From Christensenella sp. UBA3792 (GTDB taxonomy: Bacteria; Bacillota; Clostridia; Christensenellales; CAG-138): DNA of 10,259 nucleotides. Numbering within the stretch: position 1 is the first letter of the stretch; every line of letters begins with the position of its first letter. The position numbers and the translations under genes were made by a program. This document shows positions 1 through 10,259 of this stretch, in pieces. The notes beneath the pieces are model-generated. The model ran no database searches and was not told the origin of the DNA. It saw only the letters and a list, made by a program, of their open reading frames with translations. The DNA is taken from the NCBI GenBank assembly GCA_002369195.1, contig DFEW01000046.1, positions 881-11,139 of the forward strand. The letters run 5' to 3'.

Positions 1-530
1 CAGCCGATGCCGATGTTCTTGTTGGAGCCGCCGAAGCCGCCCATCATGTGCCCCTTGAAGTGCGTCAGCACGAGCAGCGAATCGTAGTTCAGCATGTTCT
101 TGCCGACGTGCATGACGTCGAACCACTTGCCGCCGTGCACCGGAAGCTCGGCAACGCCGTCCGCGTCCGTGATGTCGACGGGGCAGAACGTCCAGCCGTT
201 GATTTCGAGCGTCTTGCGGTGATCCTCGGTCGTATAGCGGCTGCCCTCGTAGTACGTGTTCGTCTCGATGATCGTCGCGTCGGGGAGCTTCGTTTCGATC
301 AGGGAACGCACCCAGGGACGCGGGATGATGTTCGGACCCTCCGCTTCGCCGGTGTGCAGCTTGATCGCGACCTTGCCGGTCAGCACCGAGCTGACGCGGT
401 CATAAATCTTCTGGAGACCCTGTTCGGAAAGATCGCGCGTGAAGAACACGACGGAGCTTTCGCCGGTGCGTTCCGAAAAGGGGATGTACTTGTTACCGTC
501 CCTGCCGGGTACGGGATGCTGTTCGCGCAT
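1..530 (-). CDS. DUF362-family protein, 3' part beyond the left edge
   Basis: This is the first 176 codons of a gene that continues off the left edge. The start ATG (528-530, complement) is preceded at good spacing by AGGAGG (538-543, complement). The translated sequence looks like the DUF362 family: an early AIKLHTGE motif (residues 55-62), the N-I-I-P-R-P-W-V segment after it, and the hallmark HFKGHMMGGFGGSNKN (157-172) near the window edge. DUF362 proteins are uncharacterised; many carry ferredoxin-type Fe-S clusters in the C-terminal half, which cannot be seen here. No signal peptide or membrane segment is visible in the part present, so a cytoplasmic location is likely. It is transcribed divergently from the hydrogenase operon across a 189-bp gap, so the two could share regulation, but nothing proves a functional link. 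Family assignment is firm; function is unknown. Confidence 0.85.
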   Translation of the reverse strand, partial: MREQHPVPGRDGNKYIPFSERTGESSVVFFTRDLSEQGLQKIYDRVSSVLTGKVAIKLHTGEAEGPNIIPRPWVRSLIETKLPDATIIETNTYYEGSRYTTEDHRKTLEINGWTFCPVDITDADGVAELPVHGGKWFDVMHVGKNMLNYDSLLVLTHFKGHMMGGFGGSNKNIGIG

Positions 531-646: not shown

Positions 647-674
647 TTGCGAACCGTGCCGGATATGGTATGAT
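647..674 (+). promoter_or_regulatory. Putative sigma-A-type promoter of the hydrogenase operon
   Basis: A -35-like TTGCGA (647-652) is followed after 16 bases by a good -10 TATGAT (669-674). Transcription would start near 681 and give a short leader of about 40 bases before the sensory hydrogenase ATG at 720. No riboswitch-sized leader is available. Confidence 0.55.
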
Positions 675-719: not shown

Positions 720-2399
720 ATGGCAAGCTGTCTGATGCTGAAGAAATCCAACTGCAAGAACTGTTACAAGTGCATCCGGCACTGTCCCGTCAAGTCGATC
801 CGCTTCTCGGGCAGTCAGGCGCACATCATCGGAGACGAGTGCATCCTGTGCGGACACTGCTTCGTCGTCTGCCCGCAGAACGCGAAGCAGATCGTGAGCA
901 GCGTCGAAAAGGTGCGCGTGCTGATTCAGAGCGGCGATCCGGTCGTGGTGAGTCTCGCACCGTCGTTCATCGCGAACTACAAGGGCGCGGGCATCGAATC
1001 GATGCGCAAGACGCTGAAAAAGCTCGGCTTCTATGACGCGGAGGAGACCGCGATCGGCGCGACGATCGTCAAGCGCGAATACGACCGGCTCCTGTCCGAG
1101 GAGGGACGCGACGTGGTGATCTCGTCGTGCTGTCACTCGATCAACCTGCTGATTCAGAAGTATTTCCCGTCCGTTCTGCCGTGCCTTGCCGACGTACTTT
1201 CGCCGATGCAGGCGCACTGTCAGGACATCAAGCGCCGCATTCCCAACGCCAAGACCGTGTTCATCGGACCGTGCGTCGCCAAAAAGGACGAGGCGGAGCT
1301 GTACGCGGGCATCGTCGACGCGGTGCTGACCTTCGAAGAGCTGTCCGAATGGCTGGAGGCGGAGGGCATCGCGATCGAGCCGGAGCGCGACGAGAGCAAC
1401 GAGAGCCGAGCGCGCTTCTTCCCGACGACCGGCGGCATCTTAAAGACGATGGTGCGCGAACGCAAGGATTACAGCTATCTCGCGCTCGACGGCGTCGAAA
1501 ACTGCATCGCGGCGCTGAAGGATATCGAAAGTGGCAAGATCCACCGCTGCTTCATCGAAATGTCGGCGTGCGCGGGCAGCTGCGTCGGCGGTCCGGTCAT
1601 GGAGAAATACCACAGCCGCAGCCCGATCAGCGATTATGTTGCGGTCAGCGAGTACGCCGGAAAGAAGGATTTCAACGTCGAGCAGCCCGATTCGATCGCG
1701 ATCCGCAAGAGCTTTGCGCCGATCGACCGGCATGAGGTGCAGCCGTCCGAGTCCGAGATCCGCGCCGTGCTGCGCGAGATGGGCAAATACAGCCCCGCGC
1801 AGGAGCTGAACTGCGGCTCGTGCGGATACAATTCCTGCCGCGAGAAGGCGATCGCCGTCTGCCAGGGCAAGGCGGAGATTTCGATGTGCCTGCCGTTTTT
1901 GAAGGACAAGGCGGAGAGCTTCTCCGATACGATCGTCAAGAACTCGCCAATCGCGCTCATCGTAATCAACGACCAGTTTGAGGTGCAGCAGATCAACAAT
2001 GCGGCATTGAAGCTGATGAACCTGCGTTCCGCGGACGACGTGCTCGGCGATCAGGTCGTGCGCATCCTCGATCCGCTTCCGTTCATGACCGTGCAGAACA
2101 CCGGACGCAGCGTGGTCAACCAGCACATGTACCTTGCCGAGTATCGGCGGTACGTGGAGCAGATCATCGTACAGGACCGCGAAAGCCGGATGATGATCTG
2201 TTCGATGCGCGACATCACGAACGAGGAAACCCAGCGCGAAAAGAAAGAGGAGATCACGCGGCAGACCGTGGAGGTCGCCGACAAGGTCGTGGAGAAGCAG
2301 ATGCGCATCGTGCAGGAGATCGCGTCGCTGCTCGGCGAGACCGCCGCGGAAACGAAGATCGCGCTTGCGAAGCTGAAGGAGTCGATCACCGATGAATGA
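720..2399 (+). CDS. Sensory-type [FeFe]-hydrogenase with PAS domain (group C-like)
   Basis: 559 residues, probably a cytosolic redox/H2 sensor. In order: a two-cluster ferredoxin domain (C12, C15, C18, C22 and C41, C44, C47, C51); an H-cluster domain, about 75-335; a four-Cys Fe-S domain (C365, C368, C373, C390); a PAS domain, about 400-500; and a charged C-terminal helix, about 500-559, probably coiled coil. All four Cys expected to hold the H-cluster are present: C138 (SSCCHS), C185 (GPCVAKKDE), C284 and C288 (ACAGSC). The proton-relay Cys (C137) and E191 are kept, but G183 and S282 occupy the positions of two active-site Met residues of CpI-type enzymes. Fusion of a hydrogenase core to PAS is the mark of putative sensory (HydS/group C) proteins. 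No kinase or cyclase output is fused, so signalling presumably passes to the phosphatase whose start overlaps this stop codon. H2 sensing itself is inferred; redox or O2 sensing is an alternative. Confidence 0.88.
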   Translation: MASCLMLKKSNCKNCYKCIRHCPVKSIRFSGSQAHIIGDECILCGHCFVVCPQNAKQIVSSVEKVRVLIQSGDPVVVSLAPSFIANYKGAGIESMRKTLKKLGFYDAEETAIGATIVKREYDRLLSEEGRDVVISSCCHSINLLIQKYFPSVLPCLADVLSPMQAHCQDIKRRIPNAKTVFIGPCVAKKDEAELYAGIVDAVLTFEELSEWLEAEGIAIEPERDESNESRARFFPTTGGILKTMVRERKDYSYLALDGVENCIAALKDIESGKIHRCFIEMSACAGSCVGGPVMEKYHSRSPISDYVAVSEYAGKKDFNVEQPDSIAIRKSFAPIDRHEVQPSESEIRAVLREMGKYSPAQELNCGSCGYNSCREKAIAVCQGKAEISMCLPFLKDKAESFSDTIVKNSPIALIVINDQFEVQQINNAALKLMNLRSADDVLGDQVVRILDPLPFMTVQNTGRSVVNQHMYLAEYRRYVEQIIVQDRESRMMICSMRDITNEETQREKKEEITRQTVEVADKVVEKQMRIVQEIASLLGETAAETKIALAKLKESITDE

Positions 2400-3561
2400 C
2401 CTTTGCGCCGACATCGGCTATAAAAGCATCCTGCACGCGGGCGAACAGCTCTGCGGCGACCATGTGGACATCGCATCGGACGAGCAGTCCACCGTGGTCG
2501 TGCTTGCCGACGGGCTCGGCAGCGGCGTCAAGGCGAGCATCCTCTCGACGCTGACCTCGAAGATCATCTCGACGATGATGGCGGAGGGGCTTTCAATCGA
2601 GGACTGCGTCCGCACGATCGCGGCGACCCTGCCGGTCGATTCGAAGCACGGCGTGGCGTATTCGACGTTCACGATCGTGCATCTTCTGAACAACACCTAC
2701 GCGGACGTGATCCAGTACGACAACCCGCAGCTGATCCTGCTGCGCAACGGGCAGAACTACGACTACCCGACGCAGGAAATGCACATCGGGGACAAGAAGA
2801 TCCTGCGCTCGCACATCCGTCTCGAGGAAGGCGACCTGTTTATCGCCATGTCCGACGGCTGTCCGCACGCGAGCGCGGAGGAAGCGTACAACATGGACTG
2901 GACGCGCGACGACATCATCGAGTTTATGGAGACGGTCTCGCTCGCGGGGTACACCGCGAAAACGCTGTCGACCATGCTCGTGGACGAATGCTGGAAGCTC
3001 TACGCCGGCGAACCGCGCGACGACGCGACCGCCTGCGTGATCGCGATCCGCAAGCGCGAGCCGATGAATATCCTGTTCGGACCGCCGAGCGATCCGGACG
3101 ACGCCGAGCGTATGATGAACCTCTTCTTTTCGAAGGAAGGCAAGCACATCATCTGCGGCGGCACGACGGCGTCGATCGCCGCAAAGCATCTTCGCGTGCC
3201 GCTGCGCGCGGGCTCTGGCGAGATGGTCGGCGGCATTCCGCCCACATCCGAATTGGAGGGCGTCGATCTTGTCACCGAGGGCGTCATCACGATGAGCCGC
3301 GTGGTCGAGTACGCGCACGACTTTGTCGGCGAAAACACGCAGTACGAGACCTGGAGCTACGGACGCGACGGCGCGTCGATGATCTGCCGTCTGCTGTTCG
3401 AGGAGGCGACCGACATCAATTTCTACGTCGGCCGCGCGGTCAATCCCGCGCACCAGGACCCGAACCTGCCGATCAACTTCCATATCAAGATGCGGCTCGT
3501 CGACGAGCTGTCGGAAGCGCTTCGCACGATGGGCAAGCGCGTCAAAATCAGTTATTTCTAA
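2392..3561 (+). CDS. SpoIIE/PP2C-type protein phosphatase with unassigned C-terminal domain
   Basis: 389 residues; a probable Mn/Mg-dependent serine/threonine phosphatase acting in the cytosol. The PP2C/SpoIIE core spans about 1-220, with metal-ligand motifs GDHV (D23), LADGLGSG (D40), MSDG (D155) and PRDDAT (D210, D211). Residues about 225-389 form a second domain that I cannot assign; it contains a glycine-rich ICGGTTASIAAKHL segment (254-267) and a VDLVTEGVIT segment (291-300). There is no membrane segment, unlike true sporulation SpoIIE, so this is not the sporulation protein. The ATG overlaps the stop of the sensory hydrogenase by 8 bases, with AAGGAG at 2376-2381, indicating translational coupling and probably matched amounts. 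SpoIIE-type enzymes usually dephosphorylate an anti-sigma-factor antagonist; no such partner or cognate kinase lies in the window, so the substrate is unknown. Confidence 0.87.
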   Translation: MNDLCADIGYKSILHAGEQLCGDHVDIASDEQSTVVVLADGLGSGVKASILSTLTSKIISTMMAEGLSIEDCVRTIAATLPVDSKHGVAYSTFTIVHLLNNTYADVIQYDNPQLILLRNGQNYDYPTQEMHIGDKKILRSHIRLEEGDLFIAMSDGCPHASAEEAYNMDWTRDDIIEFMETVSLAGYTAKTLSTMLVDECWKLYAGEPRDDATACVIAIRKREPMNILFGPPSDPDDAERMMNLFFSKEGKHIICGGTTASIAAKHLRVPLRAGSGEMVGGIPPTSELEGVDLVTEGVITMSRVVEYAHDFVGENTQYETWSYGRDGASMICRLLFEEATDINFYVGRAVNPAHQDPNLPINFHIKMRLVDELSEALRTMGKRVKISYF

Positions 3562-3570
3562 GGAGGCAGC

Positions 3571-5004
3571 ATGACGCCGAAATCGGAACGCAGATTCGAT
3601 ACGAAGATTCAGTACCTCAAGTACAAGGTCCTGCGCGAGGTTGCGCGGCAGGAATGGAACGGCACGCTCGAAGAAAACCTGCTCGACATTCCCAGGATGA
3701 TCGTGCCGGGCAAGGTCCCGACGATGCGCTGCTGCGTGTATAAGGAACGCGCGATCCTCGCCGAGCGCATCAAGCTCGCGATGGGCAGGGACCTCGGCGA
3801 GCCCGCGATCATTCAGGTCATCGACATCGCCTGCGACGAGTGTCCCGCCGCCGGATACGAGGTCACCTCGTCCTGCCGCGGCTGTCTCGCGCACCGGTGC
3901 GAGGATGTGTGCCCGCGCGGCGCGATCACGTTCGACCACAACCATGTCGCGTTCATCGACAAGACCAAGTGCGTCGAGTGCGGCCGTTGCTCCGAGGTAT
4001 GCCCGTACACCGCGATCATCAACCGCAAGCGTCCCTGCCAGATCGCGTGCAAGGTCAAGGCGATCTCGATCAACGAGGACAACGCGGCGTCGATCGACCA
4101 CGACAAGTGCATTTCGTGCGGCGCATGCGTATACCAGTGCCCGTTCGGCGCGATCAGCGACAAGTCCTTCATCCTGAACGTGATCCGCATGCTCAAGGAT
4201 GCAGCGGCGGGCGGCGAAAAGGTCGTCGCGATCGTCGCGCCTGCGATTTCGAGCCAGTTCACCTATGCAAAGCTCGGGCAGGTCGTGACCGGTCTCAAGT
4301 CGCTCGGCTTCGATACCGTCATGGAGGCGGCACTCGGCGCGGACATGGTTGCGCAGAGCGAATCGCGCGAGCTCGCGGAGCGCGGGTTCTTGACCAGCTC
4401 CTGCTGTCCGGCGTTTGTCACGTACATCCGCAAATCGTTCGACAAGCTCACCCCGTACATCTCCGACTCGCTCTCCCCGATGGCGACGATCGCGCGCTAT
4501 CTCAAGGAGAACCGCGCGTGCAAGACCGTGTTCATCGGACCGTGCACCGCGAAGAAGGCGGAGATCGAACAGGACTTCGTCAAGCCGTATGTCGACGCAG
4601 TGCTGACGTTCGAGGAACTGCAGGCGCTGTTCGACAGCCGCGACATCGATATCACCGCGCTGGAGGAGGGCGTGCTCGACAACGCGTCCTACTTCGGACG
4701 CATCTTCGCGCGCTGCGGCGGTCTGTCCGACGCGGTAGCGGAGGGCTTGAAGGAGCAGGGGATCGCGTTCGATCTCAAGCCCGTCTCGTGCGATGGCATC
4801 GAGGAGTGCCGCATCGCGCTCCTCAAGAAGAGCCGCAACGCCTCCGACGCCAACTTCATCGAGGGCATGGCGTGCGTCGGCGGCTGCATCGGCGGCGCGG
4901 GCTGTCTGACGCACAGCCCCAAAAACCGCGCCTCCGTCGACCGGTTCGGCGAGCAGGCGACGCGCTCGATCGCTGAGGCGGTCGCGGGACTGAATCAGGA
5001 ATAA
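3571..5004 (+). CDS. Monomeric [FeFe]-hydrogenase, group B type
   Basis: 477 residues; predicted to catalyse reversible 2H+ + 2e- to H2 in the cytosol, probably with ferredoxin. The Fe-S-rich N-terminal half has complete four-Cys motifs at C102/C105/C110/C114, C134/C137/C140/C144 and C180/C183/C186/C190, an incomplete motif at C156/C160, and an extra C88/C91 pair. The H-cluster domain (about 215-475) has all three signatures: TSSCCPAF (C278, C279), GPCTAKKAE (C325, K328, E331) and EGMACVGGCIGGAG (M433, C435, C439). The TSSCCPAF form, the GGAG ending and this N-terminal layout fit group B monomeric enzymes (such as CpIII of Clostridium pasteurianum) rather than group A CpI. AGGAGG (3561-3566) overlaps the stop of the phosphatase gene, so the three genes are one operon. 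Catalysis would need the HydEFG maturases, which are not in the window. A regulatory rather than metabolic role cannot be excluded. Confidence 0.9.
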   Translation: MTPKSERRFDTKIQYLKYKVLREVARQEWNGTLEENLLDIPRMIVPGKVPTMRCCVYKERAILAERIKLAMGRDLGEPAIIQVIDIACDECPAAGYEVTSSCRGCLAHRCEDVCPRGAITFDHNHVAFIDKTKCVECGRCSEVCPYTAIINRKRPCQIACKVKAISINEDNAASIDHDKCISCGACVYQCPFGAISDKSFILNVIRMLKDAAAGGEKVVAIVAPAISSQFTYAKLGQVVTGLKSLGFDTVMEAALGADMVAQSESRELAERGFLTSSCCPAFVTYIRKSFDKLTPYISDSLSPMATIARYLKENRACKTVFIGPCTAKKAEIEQDFVKPYVDAVLTFEELQALFDSRDIDITALEEGVLDNASYFGRIFARCGGLSDAVAEGLKEQGIAFDLKPVSCDGIEECRIALLKKSRNASDANFIEGMACVGGCIGGAGCLTHSPKNRASVDRFGEQATRSIAEAVAGLNQE

Positions 5005-5017
5005 CGCACAATCACGC

Positions 5018-5048
5018 AAAAAGAGACCGCAAAAACGGTCTCTTTTTT
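5018..5048. terminator. Strong bidirectional rho-independent terminator
   Basis: A perfect 12-bp inverted repeat (5018-5029 with 5036-5047, GAGACCG core, six-base loop) is flanked by an A-run on the left and a T-run on the right. It therefore works as a terminator for the hydrogenase operon (plus) and for the converging HD-GYP gene (minus), which stops at 5059. Confidence 0.93.
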
Positions 5049-5058
5049 CGTCTGAAGC

Positions 5059-6873
5059 TTACTCGTCCGACTGCGGAGCGGTCATGCGATCGTAGAACGC
5101 GCGGTAGAAGGGCGCGTCGTCGCTGAGAATGCGCTCGAGCTGCGCGTGCAGCGCGGGATCGCCGAGATGCACGGTGACGAGCGGGGAAAAGCGCTTGTGC
5201 TCCTGCGCCGCGATGTCGCGGATCACCGCGTCGAGATCGCCGTCGTACTGATCGCACAGGTATGAAACGACCGCGAGCGTGTCGGTCATCTGCCGGTAGG
5301 GCGAGGCGTTGCGCACGTACTGTTCCGGGTACCCGCCCGCGCCGTTGTACCAGCTGTGGTGTCCGAACGCTGCGTCGGCGTAGATCGCGGTCGAGGGGCG
5401 CTCCATGAGCTCGGTGTGACCGGCGATCGTGTGCAGACGGATCATGCTGTCCTCGACTTCGAACAGACTCCGCACCGACGTCATGCGCGTGACGTTCATT
5501 TCGATCCGTCCGAGATCGTGATACAGCCCGCATTCGCCGGCAAACCGCACGACCGTTTCGCGCTTTTCAACCGGATCGGCGATCGACGCGATCCAGTCCA
5601 CGTCGTCGTAGAACGTCGGGTCGCTGTCGAACAGCGTGCCGGCGTACAGGCGCATCACCGCGGCGATCTGTTCGGAGCGGATCATCAGCGCGCCGGCGAA
5701 GCGCTGCATCATCTGCAGGGCGACGTCTTTGAGCGGCGGCACGTCCTTGATCTCGTAATAGCCGCTCATGACGAGGCGCAGAATGTAGGTCAGATAATCC
5801 GGATCCCGATCGAGCGGGCAGTGCATCAGCGTGTGCATCATCCGCCGGTAAATGCGTGCGAGCACCTGTTCGTGCTTGGCACGGTTCTTCGCGCCGGGAT
5901 TGGAGCGCAGCAGACGCCCGTAATAGATCGGCAGCTGCACGTTCCCGTACAGTCCGGAAACGCTGTAATCGGATGCGTCCATGCCTTCGACGATGTGCTC
6001 GAGCCGTTCGAGCGTCGTTTCGAGGTCGACGAACCCGCAGGAAAACTCCATTTCATAGTACGGCCACAGCCAGCGAACGTCCGGATTCTGTACGCCGTCC
6101 TCCGGCTTGAACACCTCGTAGCACGATTCGAATACCGCTTCAAGCTCCTGCGTCGTCAGATCGCCGCGCGACAGCGTCGTGCGGTTCGCGCTCATCTGCT
6201 GGTTGGAGCGGCGCACGAACACGTCCCACGGCAGCGACGGTTCGAGATTGCGGTAGTAGTCGTCCCTGCAGATCTGCAGCACGCGCTTGGTCACCGCGAT
6301 GCGGCGTTTGCGGTCGTTCGAGCAGATCGCGATGTTCGCCAGCGCGCGGATGATGTAGCCGCGCGTTTCGCTGTCCTCGATCTCGGCAAAGTATTTGAGA
6401 TACGAACCCGCCTCGGTGAAGATCATTTCGTTGCGGAACCGGTACGAGGCGATGTATTTGGAGCCGACGCCCTCGATGATGCGGTTCTGATAATACAGTC
6501 CCATGCCGAGCTTGTACAGCTCGCGGATGATGCGGTTGCGATCGCGCCGCACGCGATACATGCGCAGCAGCGCGTCGTGAATCTGCACGTAAACGCCGCA
6601 GTCGAGGTTCGTTTTCCAGTCCATCAGCTTGTCGGCAAAGGCGATCAGCTCGTCGATCGTCTCCTCGCTTGCCGCATGTAGCGCGTCAAGCACAGGAAAC
6701 AGGTGTTCGCCGAGCAGCTCCATGTTCTGCTGCCGCAGCGCCTTGATGCGCGCGGAGCGGCGCTTCTGCTCGGCATACCATGTCTCGAAACCGTCGGTCG
6801 GGACGGCATAAAAGTCCGAGAGCGCGCTGATCTCGGTCGTATTGTCGATGTACTGCTGTTGATAGGGCTGCAT
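5059..6873 (-). CDS. Large helical protein with C-terminal HD-GYP-like domain
   Basis: 604 residues, no signal peptide or membrane segment. Residues 1 to about 435 are helix-rich, rich in Arg, Tyr and Leu, possibly a TPR-like scaffold; I recognise no named family there. Residues about 440-560 resemble an HD-GYP phosphodiesterase: YHDLGRI (H452, D453), H481 with G485 (H-x3-G), H505-H506, and NGAGGYP (510-516) for the usual DGxGYP. HD-GYP domains hydrolyse cyclic di-GMP or related dinucleotides. Departures are HDxGR instead of HDxGK, N510 for Asp, and S537 where VVDxFDA normally supplies a metal-binding Asp, so activity may be altered or lost. The start follows GGGAGGG (6880-6886, complement) by 6 bases, and the gene lies 14 bases downstream of the hybrid kinase gene, so the two are surely co-transcribed. 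It may be an output or partner of that kinase. The domain call is good; activity is uncertain. Confidence 0.72.
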   Translation of the reverse strand: MQPYQQQYIDNTTEISALSDFYAVPTDGFETWYAEQKRRSARIKALRQQNMELLGEHLFPVLDALHAASEETIDELIAFADKLMDWKTNLDCGVYVQIHDALLRMYRVRRDRNRIIRELYKLGMGLYYQNRIIEGVGSKYIASYRFRNEMIFTEAGSYLKYFAEIEDSETRGYIIRALANIAICSNDRKRRIAVTKRVLQICRDDYYRNLEPSLPWDVFVRRSNQQMSANRTTLSRGDLTTQELEAVFESCYEVFKPEDGVQNPDVRWLWPYYEMEFSCGFVDLETTLERLEHIVEGMDASDYSVSGLYGNVQLPIYYGRLLRSNPGAKNRAKHEQVLARIYRRMMHTLMHCPLDRDPDYLTYILRLVMSGYYEIKDVPPLKDVALQMMQRFAGALMIRSEQIAAVMRLYAGTLFDSDPTFYDDVDWIASIADPVEKRETVVRFAGECGLYHDLGRIEMNVTRMTSVRSLFEVEDSMIRLHTIAGHTELMERPSTAIYADAAFGHHSWYNGAGGYPEQYVRNASPYRQMTDTLAVVSYLCDQYDGDLDAVIRDIAAQEHKRFSPLVTVHLGDPALHAQLERILSDDAPFYRAFYDRMTAPQSDE

Positions 6874-6887
6874 CGCGTTCCCTCCCG

Positions 6888-8597
6888 TCAGACGATCTGA
6901 TTCAGGGTCTGCATCAAAAGCTGAATGTCGATCGGCTTGGGCAGATGTCCGTTCATGCCCGCGCTGCGCGACTTTAAGACGTCCTCGGCGAACGTGTTCG
7001 CGGTCATGGCGATGATCGGCACGGTTGCCGCGTCCGACCGGTCGCTTTCGCGGATGCGCCGCGCGGCGGTATAGCCGTCCATGACCGGCATCTGAATGTC
7101 CATCAGGATCAGGTCGTAATAGCCCTCCGCCGAGCGCAGGTACCGGTCGACCGCCTCCTTGCCGTTCTCTGCCGTATCGATTGCCGCATTCGTCACGCCG
7201 AGCAGCTCGAGCGCGATTTCGCGGTTGATCATGTTGTCCTCCACGAGCAGCAGATGCTTGCCGTTGAGGTCCGGCGAGCCGAACGGGCGCTCCTGCTCGG
7301 TCGACGGCGTCAGCGCCTTGTTGAGACCGTTCAACAGCGATTTGCGGAACACGGGCAGGGGAATGAAATGCCTGAGCCCGCAGCGGTTCGCATGGTACTC
7401 GATCTCCTCCCAGTTGTGTTCGCTCACGAGAATCAGCTCCGCCTGCGGGAACGACTTCGAGAGGTACGACGCGAGATCGAACACCGTGCCGGTATGGTCG
7501 ATACGGCTGCCGATCAGGATCGCGTCATAGGCCTTGCCCTGATAGTCCGCATCCGCGAGCGCCGAAACCGCCTCCGACGACGAGCAAACCAGCGTGTAGT
7601 CGATCCGAAACTCATCGAGGTACGTGCGGTATACGCTCCGCATCGCGTCGTCGGCTTCGATGATCAGGATGCGCTTGTCGAGAAGCGCTTCGGTATGCAC
7701 CTCGATCGTCGAGTAGCGCAGCGGGATGCGGATGAACACCGTCGTGCCCTCGCCCTGCTTGCTCTCGATGCGAATGCTGCCCTGCATCGCCTCGATCAGC
7801 TTTTTGACGATGCTCATGCCGAGCCCGGTCCCCTCAATCTTGGAGATCGTCGAGGACGATACGCGCTCGAACGGGTCGAAGATTCGCTGCAGAAACGCCT
7901 CGCTCATGCCGATGCCGTTGTCCGCGCACGTAAAGCACAGCACGCAGCGGTCGTCTTCGTGCGCTTCGTCGATCGACAGCTGCAGCGCGCCGCCCTCCGG
8001 CGTATACTTGACCGCGTTGTTCAGGATGTTGACAAAGATCTGCCGCAGGCGCAGCGGGTCGCCGCACAGGTTCTCCGCAAAGATTTCGCCGACCGCAAGC
8101 CGGAACGTGTGCTTTTTCTGCTCGATCTGCGGACGGATGATCGTCATCGTTTCGTGCAGCAGATCGCTGAGCGAGAAGAATTCCTCCGCGATGTTCAGTT
8201 TGCCTGAATTGATGCGCGACATGTCGAGAATATCGTTGATGAGACTCAGAAGATGTCCGCTTGCGACTTCGATCTTATTGAGCGCGTCGGATACGCGCGC
8301 CTTCTCGTCAATGTGCTTTTTGGCGAGCGCGGTCATGCCGACGATCGCGTTCATCGGCGTGCGGATATCGTGCGACATGTTGCTCAGAAATGTTTCCTTC
8401 GCAAGGTTCGCCTCGCGCGCTTCGTTGAGCTCCGCCTCGAGCAGCTGCATCCGCGCGGCCTGATCCGCGTCCTCGCACAGCAGCAGCGTCGTGCCGTCGG
8501 GCAGCGGGATCCGTTCGCATACGGCGTCCGGTGTATAGGCGTTCGTGCGGGTCAGCTCCCGTCCCGACGCGTCGATGATCGCATACGCTCTGTCCAT
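6888..8597 (-). CDS. Soluble hybrid histidine kinase with degenerate and intact receiver domains
   Basis: 569 residues. A short N-terminal segment (about 1-45) is followed by a helix (about 46-68), the dimerisation/phosphoacceptor domain with SHDIRTPMNAI (H76), and an ATPase domain with N-box (N190, N193, N194), G1 ADNGIGM (225-231), F-box FDPFERV (240-246) and G2 GTGLGMS (256-262). Receiver 1 (about 308-428) is degenerate: G363 stands where the phosphoacceptor Asp belongs, and the conserved Lys near 414 is missing. Receiver 2 (about 447-567) is canonical: E453/D454, D500 in LMDIQMPVMDG, T532, K554. No membrane span or PAS sensor is present, so it probably senses a cytosolic cue or a partner protein. 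There is no fused Hpt or DNA-binding output; phosphate may end on receiver 2 or pass to an unlinked Hpt. It leads an operon with the HD-GYP-like gene. AAGGAGA (8604-8610, complement) supports the start. Confidence 0.93.
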   Translation of the reverse strand: MDRAYAIIDASGRELTRTNAYTPDAVCERIPLPDGTTLLLCEDADQAARMQLLEAELNEAREANLAKETFLSNMSHDIRTPMNAIVGMTALAKKHIDEKARVSDALNKIEVASGHLLSLINDILDMSRINSGKLNIAEEFFSLSDLLHETMTIIRPQIEQKKHTFRLAVGEIFAENLCGDPLRLRQIFVNILNNAVKYTPEGGALQLSIDEAHEDDRCVLCFTCADNGIGMSEAFLQRIFDPFERVSSSTISKIEGTGLGMSIVKKLIEAMQGSIRIESKQGEGTTVFIRIPLRYSTIEVHTEALLDKRILIIEADDAMRSVYRTYLDEFRIDYTLVCSSSEAVSALADADYQGKAYDAILIGSRIDHTGTVFDLASYLSKSFPQAELILVSEHNWEEIEYHANRCGLRHFIPLPVFRKSLLNGLNKALTPSTEQERPFGSPDLNGKHLLLVEDNMINREIALELLGVTNAAIDTAENGKEAVDRYLRSAEGYYDLILMDIQMPVMDGYTAARRIRESDRSDAATVPIIAMTANTFAEDVLKSRSAGMNGHLPKPIDIQLLMQTLNQIV

Positions 8598-8632
8598 TGC
8601 AGCTCTCCTTGTTTCGATTCTTTTTCATATTA

Positions 8633-8661
8633 AGTATACCAGATCGATGCCGCAAATGCAA
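8633..8661 (-). promoter_or_regulatory. Putative sigma-A-type promoter of the kinase/HD-GYP operon
   Basis: On the minus strand, TTGCAT (8656-8661) is separated by 17 bases from TATACT (8633-8638). The kinase start lies about 35 bases further on, with AAGGAGA between. Good consensus match and spacing. Confidence 0.65.
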
Positions 8662-8678
8662 CGCCGCTTTTGTGCGGG

Positions 8679-8707
8679 GTGACAGACGCGCCGCGTTGTG
8701 GTATACT
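8679..8707 (+). promoter_or_regulatory. Putative sigma-A-type promoter of the DUF4256 gene
   Basis: GTGACA (8679-8684, five of six matches to TTGACA) is followed after 17 bases by TATACT (8702-8707). The start codon at 8740 is about 25 bases past the expected transcription start. The two promoters of this divergent gap are back to back with 17 bases between their -35 boxes, so their polymerases may compete. Confidence 0.68.
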
Positions 8708-8739
8708 GATGCTATACGGGGAAAGGATGGACCGATTCG

Positions 8740-9261
8740 ATGCTGAACACGCTCAAAACCCGCTTTGCAGCGCATCCGGAACGCCATGCGGGACTCGAAT
8801 GGGAAACGGTCGAGGCGCGCCTGATTGCTAACGAATCCGCGCTCGAAACGCTGCGGCGCATGGAAGAGACCGGCGGCGAGCCGGACACGATCGGCTTCGA
8901 CGAAAAAACCGGCAAGCTGATCTTCTGCGACTGCGCAAAGGAGACGCCTGCGGGACGCAGAAGCTTGTGCTACGACGAAAAGGCGCTGCACGCGCGCACC
9001 AAGAATCCGCCGGCGGGCAGCGCGGCGGGCATGGCGGAGCATCTCGGCGCGTCGCTGATGGGCGAAGCGCTCTACCGGAAGCTGCAGACGCTCGGCGAAT
9101 TCGACCTCAAAACGTCGAGTTGGATCCTCACGCCCGATGCGATCCGCGCGCAGGGCGGCGCGCTGTTTTGCGAACGCCGCTACGGCGCGGTTTTCACCTT
9201 TCACAACGGCGCGGACTCCTACTACTCCGTCCGCGGCTTCCGCGCCTGCATCCTCGTCTGA
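8740..9261 (+). CDS. DUF4256-family protein
   Basis: 173 residues, full length by comparison with the family as I know it. Recognisable conserved blocks are the start LKTRFAAHPERHAGLEW, then RMEETGGEPDTIGFDEKTG (40-58), the DCAKETPAGRRSLCYD stretch (64-79), LGEFDLKTSSW (117-127) and the C-terminal GGALFCERRYGAVF with HNGADSYYSVRGF. No membrane segment or signal peptide; probably a soluble cytosolic protein. No biochemical role is established for the family, and none is proposed here. The start is chosen from the family-like N-terminus; the upstream AAAGGA (8722-8727) is 12 bases away, a little far. It has its own promoter and terminator, so it is a single-gene unit. Confidence 0.9.
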   Translation: MLNTLKTRFAAHPERHAGLEWETVEARLIANESALETLRRMEETGGEPDTIGFDEKTGKLIFCDCAKETPAGRRSLCYDEKALHARTKNPPAGSAAGMAEHLGASLMGEALYRKLQTLGEFDLKTSSWILTPDAIRAQGGALFCERRYGAVFTFHNGADSYYSVRGFRACILV

Positions 9262-9319: not shown

Positions 9320-9760
9320 TTATTCGACTTCGACCACGCCGTCCGGCTTGATCGTAATCTTCATGCCGGTCTTGACGTAGGACAGGAACGCGTCGCCGAG
9401 GCAGTCGACGGTCGGCATCTTCGCGTCGGTCCAGATATCCGCGAGCAGCACGCCCGCGGCGCCGATGGAATCGATGGGATTCGCAAACAGCATGCAGGCG
9501 GGCTGGCGGCCGTAATCCGCCGCGGTGAACAGGATCATGCCGCCGGTCGTGGAACCGATCGTCTGCGGCAGACAGAGCGCAACGCCCGCAAGCGGCTTTT
9601 TATAAAGATCGGGATTGTTCTGATCCGAGCAGGTTGCCTTCTTGTCGCCGGTCAGAAAGCTCGTCGTATAGCTCGCCAGCGTGTTGAAACCGCCGTGCGA
9701 TACCAGCGCTGTCGCCGTGCATTCGCCCGGCACGACCACTCTACCCTTGAATTGCTTCAT
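9320..9760 (-). CDS. Aconitase X swivel-domain (small) subunit
   Basis: 146 residues, about the usual length for this small subunit. It matches the AcnX swivel domain (DUF126): an N-terminal GRVVVPGECTATALVS followed by GGFNTLASYTT, a central IGSTTGG (68-74) where the family has its conserved serine-containing loop, and DSIGAAGVLLADI (97-109) toward the end. AcnX enzymes are Fe-S-linked dehydratases of the aconitase superfamily; characterised members act on cis-3-hydroxy-L-proline in bacteria and on mevalonate 5-phosphate in archaea. The substrate here cannot be told from sequence. The ATG overlaps the stop of the upstream large-subunit gene (ATGA, 9757-9760), with GGAGGT at 9769-9774 on the complement, so the subunits are translationally coupled as expected for a heteromer. 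Confidence 0.87.
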   Translation of the reverse strand: MKQFKGRVVVPGECTATALVSHGGFNTLASYTTSFLTGDKKATCSDQNNPDLYKKPLAGVALCLPQTIGSTTGGMILFTAADYGRQPACMLFANPIDSIGAAGVLLADIWTDAKMPTVDCLGDAFLSYVKTGMKITIKPDGVVEVE

Positions 9761-10259
9761 TTCACTTCACCTCCGGTGATCATGGCAAGGATTTTGTCGT
9801 CTTCGTAGAAGCGGCAGGACGTATATGTGCGCAGCTTGTTCGAGTTCGTAATGATCGGCACGCTGTGCACGAGCGGGTTGTCACAGTACATCAGCGGGCA
9901 GATATAGCTGACGGTCAGTCCGTATGCCGCCGCCATGCGCTCCTCCTCGCTGCCCTTGATCGCGTTCAGCACGCCGGGGGCGGAGGTCAGCACCACGGGG
10001 ATCACGGGCTTGCTGCGGCCGTTCGCCTTGAGCGCGGCGCAGATCTTCCGGATCCAGTCGAGCAGCTCGCTCCGGGTCAGGTGCGGGCAGCCGATAAAGC
10101 ACATCTTCGGCTTTGCGTCCGGGTTCTTCCAGATGACCGGATAGCTGTCGATCACGCGCCGGATCTCGGCGTCGTCGATCACGTAGGTCTGCGCGTTCGG
10201 CGCGATCAGCGCTTCGCCCTGTTCGACCGCCTCCGGCGTCAGTCCGTCGATGTGATACA
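9757..10259 (-). CDS. Aconitase X catalytic (large) subunit, 5' part beyond the right edge
   Basis: The frame is open from the right edge (first full codon inside the window begins Y-H-I-D-G-L-T-P-E-A) to the stop at 9757-9759, giving 167 C-terminal residues; the family is about 400 residues, so more than half is missing. The GTG at 10180-10182 is internal, not the start. The segment MCFIGCPHLTRSELLDWI is typical of the AcnX catalytic domain (DUF521), including the Cys before Pro-His that I expect to help bind Fe-S or metal. A second Cys-rich stretch near the end (YICPLMYCDNP and TSCRFY) also fits. Together with the small subunit it should form one dehydratase. Substrate unknown: cis-3-hydroxyproline is one possibility, but no proline-catabolism neighbour is visible. 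Confidence 0.87.
   Translation of the reverse strand, partial: YHIDGLTPEAVEQGEALIAPNAQTYVIDDAEIRRVIDSYPVIWKNPDAKPKMCFIGCPHLTRSELLDWIRKICAALKANGRSKPVIPVVLTSAPGVLNAIKGSEEERMAAAYGLTVSYICPLMYCDNPLVHSVPIITNSNKLRTYTSCRFYEDDKILAMITGGEVK

Follow-up and report, generated by a model that had tools for sequence, protein, structure and literature searches.

The stretch of DNA analysed here, referred to as the window, comprises 10,259 nt of Christensenella sp. UBA3792 (assembly GCA_002369195.1, contig DFEW01000046.1, positions 881 to 11,139, forward strand) and encodes a sensory [FeFe] hydrogenase, a SpoIIE-type phosphatase and a group B1 [FeFe] hydrogenase in three open reading frames (ORFs). By gene order and orthology (69-72% identity to the trio of Ruminococcus albus) this is a HydS-phosphatase-HydA2, or hfsBCD, unit, an operon type that is already known:

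720..2399, plus strand: hfsB, a HydS-like sensory [FeFe] hydrogenase of 559 amino acids (71.0% identity to R. albus HydS)
2392..3561, plus strand: hfsC, a SpoIIE-type PP2C phosphatase of 389 amino acids (69.4% identity to the R. albus phosphatase)
3571..5004, plus strand: hfsD, a HydA2-like group B1 [FeFe] hydrogenase of 477 amino acids (TIGR04105; 71.6% identity to R. albus HydA2)

The first two genes overlap by 8 bases, 9 bases separate hfsC from hfsD, and a Shine-Dalgarno-like stretch is present ahead of each of the three. This tight coupling, the joining of a sensor and a phosphatase in one unit with a group B hydrogenase in third place, and the kinship with HydS and HydA2 of R. albus had all been put forward in an original prediction for this DNA, and are borne out by the ORFs, the domain matches and the identities given above. 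HfsD passes the cut-off of TIGR04105 (group B1 monomeric [FeFe] hydrogenase; 553.8 bits against 450); the R. albus enzyme is classed as group A1 in PMC6776011. An HfsA-like [2Fe-2S] ferredoxin gene was not found by tblastn within 600 nt upstream of hfsB, and because such a gene is absent directly upstream the unit is filed as hfsBCD, not hfsABCD. The usual place of HfsA is occupied by a DUF362 protein gene on the minus strand (window 3-530), divergent from hfsB.

To describe how the genes are distributed we surveyed 291 genomes of the class Clostridia, source genome included, counting HfsC at an expectation value (E) of 1e-30 or better, and two sets of neighbourhoods: the 83 hfsC places of the 291-genome set, and 80 related loci, which are the best 80 of at least 585 confirmed. 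HfsC is encoded in 83 of the 291 genomes. At 79 of the 83 places hfsB and hfsC share a strand and hfsB immediately precedes hfsC (offset -4 to 110 nt), and hfsB also precedes hfsC in 79 of the 80 best loci; the 8-base overlap of the window recurs in 36 of the 83 and in 79 of the 80. Among the four exceptions in the first set, one is cut by a contig end (L061), one is a fragment with HfsB upstream (L114), and two have HfsC apart from HfsB (L075 and L109); the sole exception among the 80 best loci, L193, begins at a contig end. HfsA is found directly upstream of hfsB in 70 of the 83 places and is missing from 7 of the 77 that could be assessed, the window among them, and HfsD (at least 40% identity) lies just downstream of hfsC in 39 of the 83 places, some of them contig-cut, and follows hfsC in 62 of the 80 best loci.

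The sensor HfsB can be divided into five parts:

741..884, plus strand: N-terminal 2x[4Fe-4S] ferredoxin-like part, residues 8-55 (domain search and alignment)
939..1595, plus strand: H-cluster domain, residues 74-292, with C138, C185, C284 and C288 (Fe_hyd_lg_C, 3.6e-47)
1803..1895, plus strand: C-terminal four-cysteine [4Fe-4S] motif PF04060, residues 362-392 (4.1e-9)
1920..2234, plus strand: PAS-like region, about residues 401-505 (weak domain match and alignment)
2277..2384, plus strand: near-invariant C-terminal helix, residues 520-555, a candidate phosphatase-docking element (from conservation; helicity assumed from the sequence)

The eight cysteines of the ferredoxin-like part show no exception across 17 aligned sequences, and the Fe_hyd_lg_C domain is present with all four H-cluster cysteines kept in 17/17. 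The PAS matches are weak, each falling below the Pfam cut-off (PAS_8, E 0.006; PAS_9, E 0.014). Mean conservation, taken over 15 of the 17 sequences, is highest among the regions compared in the C-terminal helix (0.84), followed by the ferredoxin part (0.75), the Fe-S motif (0.73), the H-domain (0.60) and the PAS region (0.51).

A 48-residue profile of this tail helix matches 83 of the 291 genomes, in open frames of at least 558 amino acids; the exceptions (G039 and G108) are shorter and lie at contig ends. Comparison with the distribution of HfsC gives 80 genomes with both, 3 with the helix only, 3 with HfsC only and 205 with neither (Fisher p 7e-64, in a test that ignores genome relatedness). 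Two of the helix-only genomes carry a divergent or contig-cut HfsC of weaker E beside the helix (G062 and G163), and the third (G057) has its helix at the edge of a contig; of the HfsC-only genomes, one has no helix (G121) and two encode sensors with a divergent tail (G144 and G244; E 0.0016 and 0.043). A looser count, which adds G062, G163 and G063 (the last with an HfsC that is 23% identical), gives 82 with both, 4 with HfsC only, 1 with the helix only and 204 with neither. As a control we used an M2e-like [FeFe] hydrogenase, a label that rests on architecture and not on comparison with TamHydS, which is found in 139 of the 291 genomes, in one (G040) through a match on HfsB. It hardly tracks HfsC: 47 genomes have both, 92 the M2e-like hydrogenase only, 36 HfsC only and 116 neither (p 0.07, kinship again ignored). 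This near one-to-one pairing is evidence that the sensor tail and the phosphatase evolve as one unit. Conserved synteny across Clostridia had been named as a check by the original prediction, and a lack of co-occurrence as grounds for rejecting it; hfsB adjoins hfsC at nearly every place of both sets (79 of 83, 79 of 80) and both elements are present in 80 of the 291 genomes, an outcome strongly in favour of co-occurrence.

Several related loci depart from the common arrangement. Divergent HfsC lineages (L112, L113, G163 and G063) are 23-27% identical, and the sensors of the first three have an altered tail helix, which makes these lineages useful for probing the co-evolution of helix and switch. 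A tandem HfsB pair precedes a single HfsC in L086 (4209-7980), with the tail helix on both HfsB copies. The HfsC locus of L150 (JAGARL010000248.1) is 71% identical to the window although its record is titled Methanocorpusculum, an archaeon; it is probably a mis-binned Clostridia contig.

The phosphatase HfsC consists of two domains, the first of which contains the switch helix:

2392..3054, plus strand: PP2C domain, residues 1-221, with D40/G41, D155/G156 and D210/D211 (domain search, alignment)
2524..2583, plus strand: PP2C switch helix alpha1, residues 45-64 (HfsC model; the most conserved region of HfsC)
3055..3558, plus strand: HfsC-specific C-terminal alpha/beta (Rossmann-like) domain, residues 222-389 (structure model, profile search)

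By its match to the SpoIIE domain PF07228 (57.7 bits against a cut-off of 25; E 2e-15), its metal-binding Asp and Gly residues and its predicted fold, HfsC is a SpoIIE-type PP2C phosphatase. The metal-site residues D40, G41, D155, G156, D210 and D211 are invariant in 27/27 sequences, and the AlphaFold model (predicted local distance difference test, pLDDT, 85.9; predicted template modelling score, pTM, 0.81) has structural matches to SpoIIE and related PP2Cs. Conservation within HfsC (25 of the 27 sequences) peaks in alpha1 (0.83) and in residues 33-44 of the active site (0.81), with the other regions at 0.49-0.67. No Pfam family matched the approximately 168 C-terminal residues; modelled alone, they are predicted to form an alpha/beta Rossmann-like unit (pLDDT 89.2), and no clear structural relative was found for this predicted domain. 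Its profile matches 86 of the 291 genomes: the 83 with HfsC, two with divergent HfsC (G163 and G063), and one (G081) in which the match is marginal (E 9.9e-4) and interrupted by stop codons. Apart from the latter, and from fragments in G042 and G191 that lie at a contig end or break, the frames holding the domain are of HfsC size. Among the proteins of the 291 genomes, this Rossmann-like domain is seen in HfsC alone. What is new here is the helix-phosphatase pairing, the conservation peaks in both helices and the HfsC-only C-terminal domain.

The closest described relative lies on pRUMAL01 of R. albus 7, the best of three matching plasmid records, in the order LysR, Rex, adhE, phosphotransferase, two small (2Fe-2S) ferredoxin genes, HydS, SpoIIE phosphatase and HydA2 (the names HydS and HydA2 are taken from the literature; the record itself gives domain names). 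The order of the last three genes, and the 8-base overlap of sensor and phosphatase, are as in the window. In R. albus, however, the LysR-to-ferredoxin genes stand directly upstream of HydS; homologues of Rex, adhE, the phosphotransferase and the ferredoxins were not found beside the window copy, where the divergent DUF362 gene lies instead. The hfsABCD operon of Thermoanaerobacterium, to which we liken the window through published descriptions and not by sequence comparison, is described as encoding an HfsB composed of [FeFe] hydrogenase and PAS, an HfsC homologous to serine phosphatases and a HydA2-like HfsD (PMC11837493); it differs in having hfsA adjoining hfsB. The HfsA of the published operon presumably corresponds to the small [2Fe-2S] protein identified here.

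The original prediction had regarded the phosphatase as the unusual feature of the cluster, and in this it is not supported: the R. albus unit has one, and both the operon and the idea of the phosphatase as signal carrier are already in print (PMC6776011, PMC11837493, PMC5707799). The H-cluster-PAS sensor was described in 2019 as coming with a putative Ser/Thr phosphatase subunit, "in common with other enzymes of this class" (PMC6776011), and hfsC knock-outs in Thermoanaerobacterium have been published (PMC5707799). In Vallitalea guaymasensis, gene 96 is described as a group C3 hydrogenase and gene 98 as a group B hydrogenase (PMC6163223). The further claim that the signalling route has not been worked out stands, in that no biochemistry of the signalling step was found in the literature as far as it was available.

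Two other groups of proteins are close to HfsB and HfsC. HfsB G183 and S282 stand at what we take to be the positions of M353 and M497 of CpI (equivalence assigned by motif). The group C (M2f) TmHydS of Thermotoga maritima, to which HfsB is likened by published description, also has an H-domain and a C-terminal four-cysteine cluster, with glycine and serine at the two methionine positions, and has PAS where HfsB shows its weakly matching PAS-like region (PMC8163306). HfsC shares the PP2C fold and switch helices with RsbP and SpoIIE. For SpoIIE it has been shown, and for RsbP proposed, that input arrives through a regulatory helix which positions the switch helices alpha1 and alpha2 (PMC5468089). 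What sets HfsC apart from both is that it would take its input from a sensor on another polypeptide, and that it has an added C-terminal Rossmann-like domain.

We consider the best explanation as a whole, at a probability of about 60%, to be that HfsB and HfsC together form an H2- or redox-gated phosphatase, a split counterpart of PAS-PP2C phosphatases such as RsbP. The sensory-type H-cluster of HfsB would read H2, its putative ligand, or the redox state of its own Fe-S chain, and the change would reach the tail helix by way of the C-terminal [4Fe-4S] cluster and then the PAS region. This helix, as the conservation of both sequences suggests, may dock on HfsC at or near alpha1 and so set whether the metal site is complete. 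HfsC would then dephosphorylate a regulator of the genes for fermentative hydrogenases and ethanol formation, hfsD included, with both sign and substrate conjectural; candidate substrates are a STAS protein from a partner-switch module of this genome, or the target of the phosphotransferase that accompanies some related operons. HfsD would make H2 from reduced ferredoxin. Gene content and order, intact catalytic residues, the near one-to-one pairing, the conserved helices and the HfsC-only domain are the observed basis of this proposal. A narrower form, that the phosphatase is an obligate two-protein device in which the 36-residue sensor tail completes the PP2C metal site via alpha1 and the Rossmann-like domain adds substrate or nucleotide recognition, is tentative, at slightly less than even odds. 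In R. albus grown together with an H2-consuming partner, the HydA2 transcript was reduced 90-fold (PMC10838669), and in this species high HydA2 accompanies the H2-rich state (PMC10838669, PMC6776011).

A number of points weigh against the split phosphatase. The regions for the conservation comparisons were chosen by us; alpha1 was ranked within HfsC alone, and the active-site residues 33-44 nearly match it. HfsC occurs without adjoining HfsB in L075 and L109, and the former runs counter to strict exclusivity of the pair: in this locus (genome G096, 5994-9146) HfsC lies beside an M2e-like hydrogenase, and a helix-bearing HfsB is encoded approximately 16 kb away on the same contig. In L109 (genome G121) HfsC stands right behind an HfsA-like gene with no HfsB, and [FeFe] hydrogenase-like, NuoE-like and NuoF-like genes are near. 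The genetics of Thermoanaerobacterium are mixed: they fit HfsB restraining HfsD output and do not require HfsC. Deletion of hfsA or hfsB in T. saccharolyticum raised ethanol whereas deletion of hfsC or hfsD did not, and loss of hfsB, but not of hfsC or hfsD, also raises the adhE transcript (PMC5707799). Overexpression of hfsD alone in a T. thermosaccharolyticum delta-hfsABCD strain gave the high-ethanol phenotype (PMC11837493), and the phosphatase is therefore not needed for that phenotype. One paper lists disrupted hfsB/C among adaptive mutations (PMC13277313), and for R. albus the output proposed by Zheng et al. was reportedly a neighbouring Ser/Thr kinase and not a phosphatase (PMC5707799).

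It is possible, if rather unlikely, that HfsB reads the redox state of ferredoxin and not H2, with electrons entering through its ferredoxin-like N-terminus (and HfsA in most genomes) and H2 turnover as a side reaction; this would be compatible with a phosphatase output. The HfsA-like gene upstream in 70 of 83 places points this way, as does the very low activity described for TmHydS and TamHydS (PMC11376134), whereas the window copy lacks an adjoining HfsA, the four H-cluster cysteines are retained in 17/17 sequences, and the R. albus transcript response accompanies H2 removal.

The substrate could also be sought in a classical partner switch, with HfsC acting on STAS anti-anti-sigma proteins and feeding an alternative sigma factor pathway, which would put a name to the substrate within the sensor-phosphatase model. 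Action on such factors is described for the PPM phosphatases of bacteria (PMC11418112), and the source genome has 4 STAS and 5 HATPase_c_2 matches; the STAS matches lie on contigs C32, C71 and C31, some near HATPase_c_2 in what would be partner-switch modules, and are candidate HfsC substrates. Neither STAS nor HATPase_c_2 was found near the 83 hfsC places, where Pfam identified 10 of 28 recurrent neighbour families, and we regard this pathway as somewhat improbable.

A direct action of HfsB on HfsD, by electron transfer or inhibition, with HfsC as a separate regulator or an accessory of an HfsB complex and the phosphatase no longer the principal output, draws on the hfsD overexpression result, which reproduces the high-ethanol phenotype of the hfsB deletion (PMC11837493), and on a 2026 paper raising the possibility that HfsABC is a functional hydrogenase (PMC13277313). 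We judge it unlikely: HfsD comes right after HfsC in just 39 of 83 and 62 of 80 places, some contig-cut, whereas the HfsB-HfsC pair is near invariant, and it is HfsC that the conserved tail helix tracks. Still more doubtful is a kinase output that HfsC merely resets, as in the proposal of Zheng et al. reported in PMC5707799. A phosphotransferase gene does precede the R. albus ferredoxin genes, and a family resembling phosphotransferases, classed as APH from its representative, occurs near hfsC in 20 of 83 places, but only in these (flanks of at most 8 kb, often contig-cut), whereas HfsC is nearly always present, and the family was not found in the 1.6 kb upstream of hfsB in the window. That the three genes adjoin by chance or hitch-hiking, with the phosphatase unrelated to the hydrogenase, is hardly credible and already disfavoured: HfsC does stand apart from HfsB in L075 and L109, but the two adjoin at 79 of the 83 places and in 79 of the 80 best loci, and HfsC pairs near one-to-one with the helix while the M2e-like control hardly tracks it.

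The finding is real and biologically sound: it names a known operon type and adds evidence that sensor tail and phosphatase evolve as a unit. The signal transduction mechanism of sensory [FeFe] hydrogenases is stated to be unknown (PMC11376134), and the pairing of tail and phosphatase as one unit opens the output of HydS to experimental test. If true, the narrower form, an obligate two-protein phosphatase, would represent a widespread H2 signalling route in Clostridia that works through dephosphorylation. Record titles of 44 of the 80 best loci name deer, goat, sheep, cattle, buffalo, yak or horse gut, and in the guts of these animals the fate of H2 influences both fermentation and methane. 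Mutations in hfsB already alter the yield of thermophiles bred for ethanol, for reasons that are described as not understood (PMC5707799, PMC11837493, PMC13277313).

The source assembly (1.86 Mb, 73.6% complete, and as such incomplete) encodes a second HfsB-HfsC pair, which is R. albus-like (L033, G000:C78:1648-12548, 4425-10513), in the order Rex, phosphotransferase homologue (33%), two HfsA, HfsB, HfsC and a NuoF-like gene; no HfsD was found in the 1.7 kb after HfsC up to the contig end. By gene content, the window copy keeps HfsD without HfsA, and the C78 copy keeps HfsA, Rex and the phosphotransferase. A further cluster on contig C61 (L210, G000:C61:34000-53000, 5775-8888) reads DRTGG, RsbW-like HATPase, M2e-like [FeFe] hydrogenase, DRTGG and PHP, and appears from its sequence to be a second, kinase-linked type of sensory hydrogenase. 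TamHydS-type M2e enzymes likewise have an H-domain and a C-terminal cluster, and adjoin a histidine-kinase-like ATPase gene (PMC8163306); unlike HfsB, the C61 protein has no Pfam PAS match and no tail-helix match. Approximately 5 kb downstream of its gene lies a further, stronger Fe_hyd_lg_C match.

Two putative signals flank the operon in the window:

647..674, plus strand: promoter-like site TTGCGA-16-TATGAT, upstream of hfsB (consensus scan, 9/12 matches)
5018..5047, plus strand: hairpin and T run resembling an intrinsic terminator at the operon end (12-bp stem, T run ending the 3' arm)

The promoter-like site is weak, because the region holds 2 such sites against a shuffle mean of 0.9. The hairpin was not among the consensus-scan results; the RNA fold of 5005-5060 has an energy of -20.5 kcal/mol. 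Beyond it, on the minus strand, a gene at 5059-6873 encodes a 604-amino-acid protein without a Pfam match and adjoins a hybrid histidine kinase gene (6888-8597) with no recognised sensor domain. Genes for an Aconitase X swivel-domain protein and AcnX lie end to end at 9320-10257, also on the minus strand.

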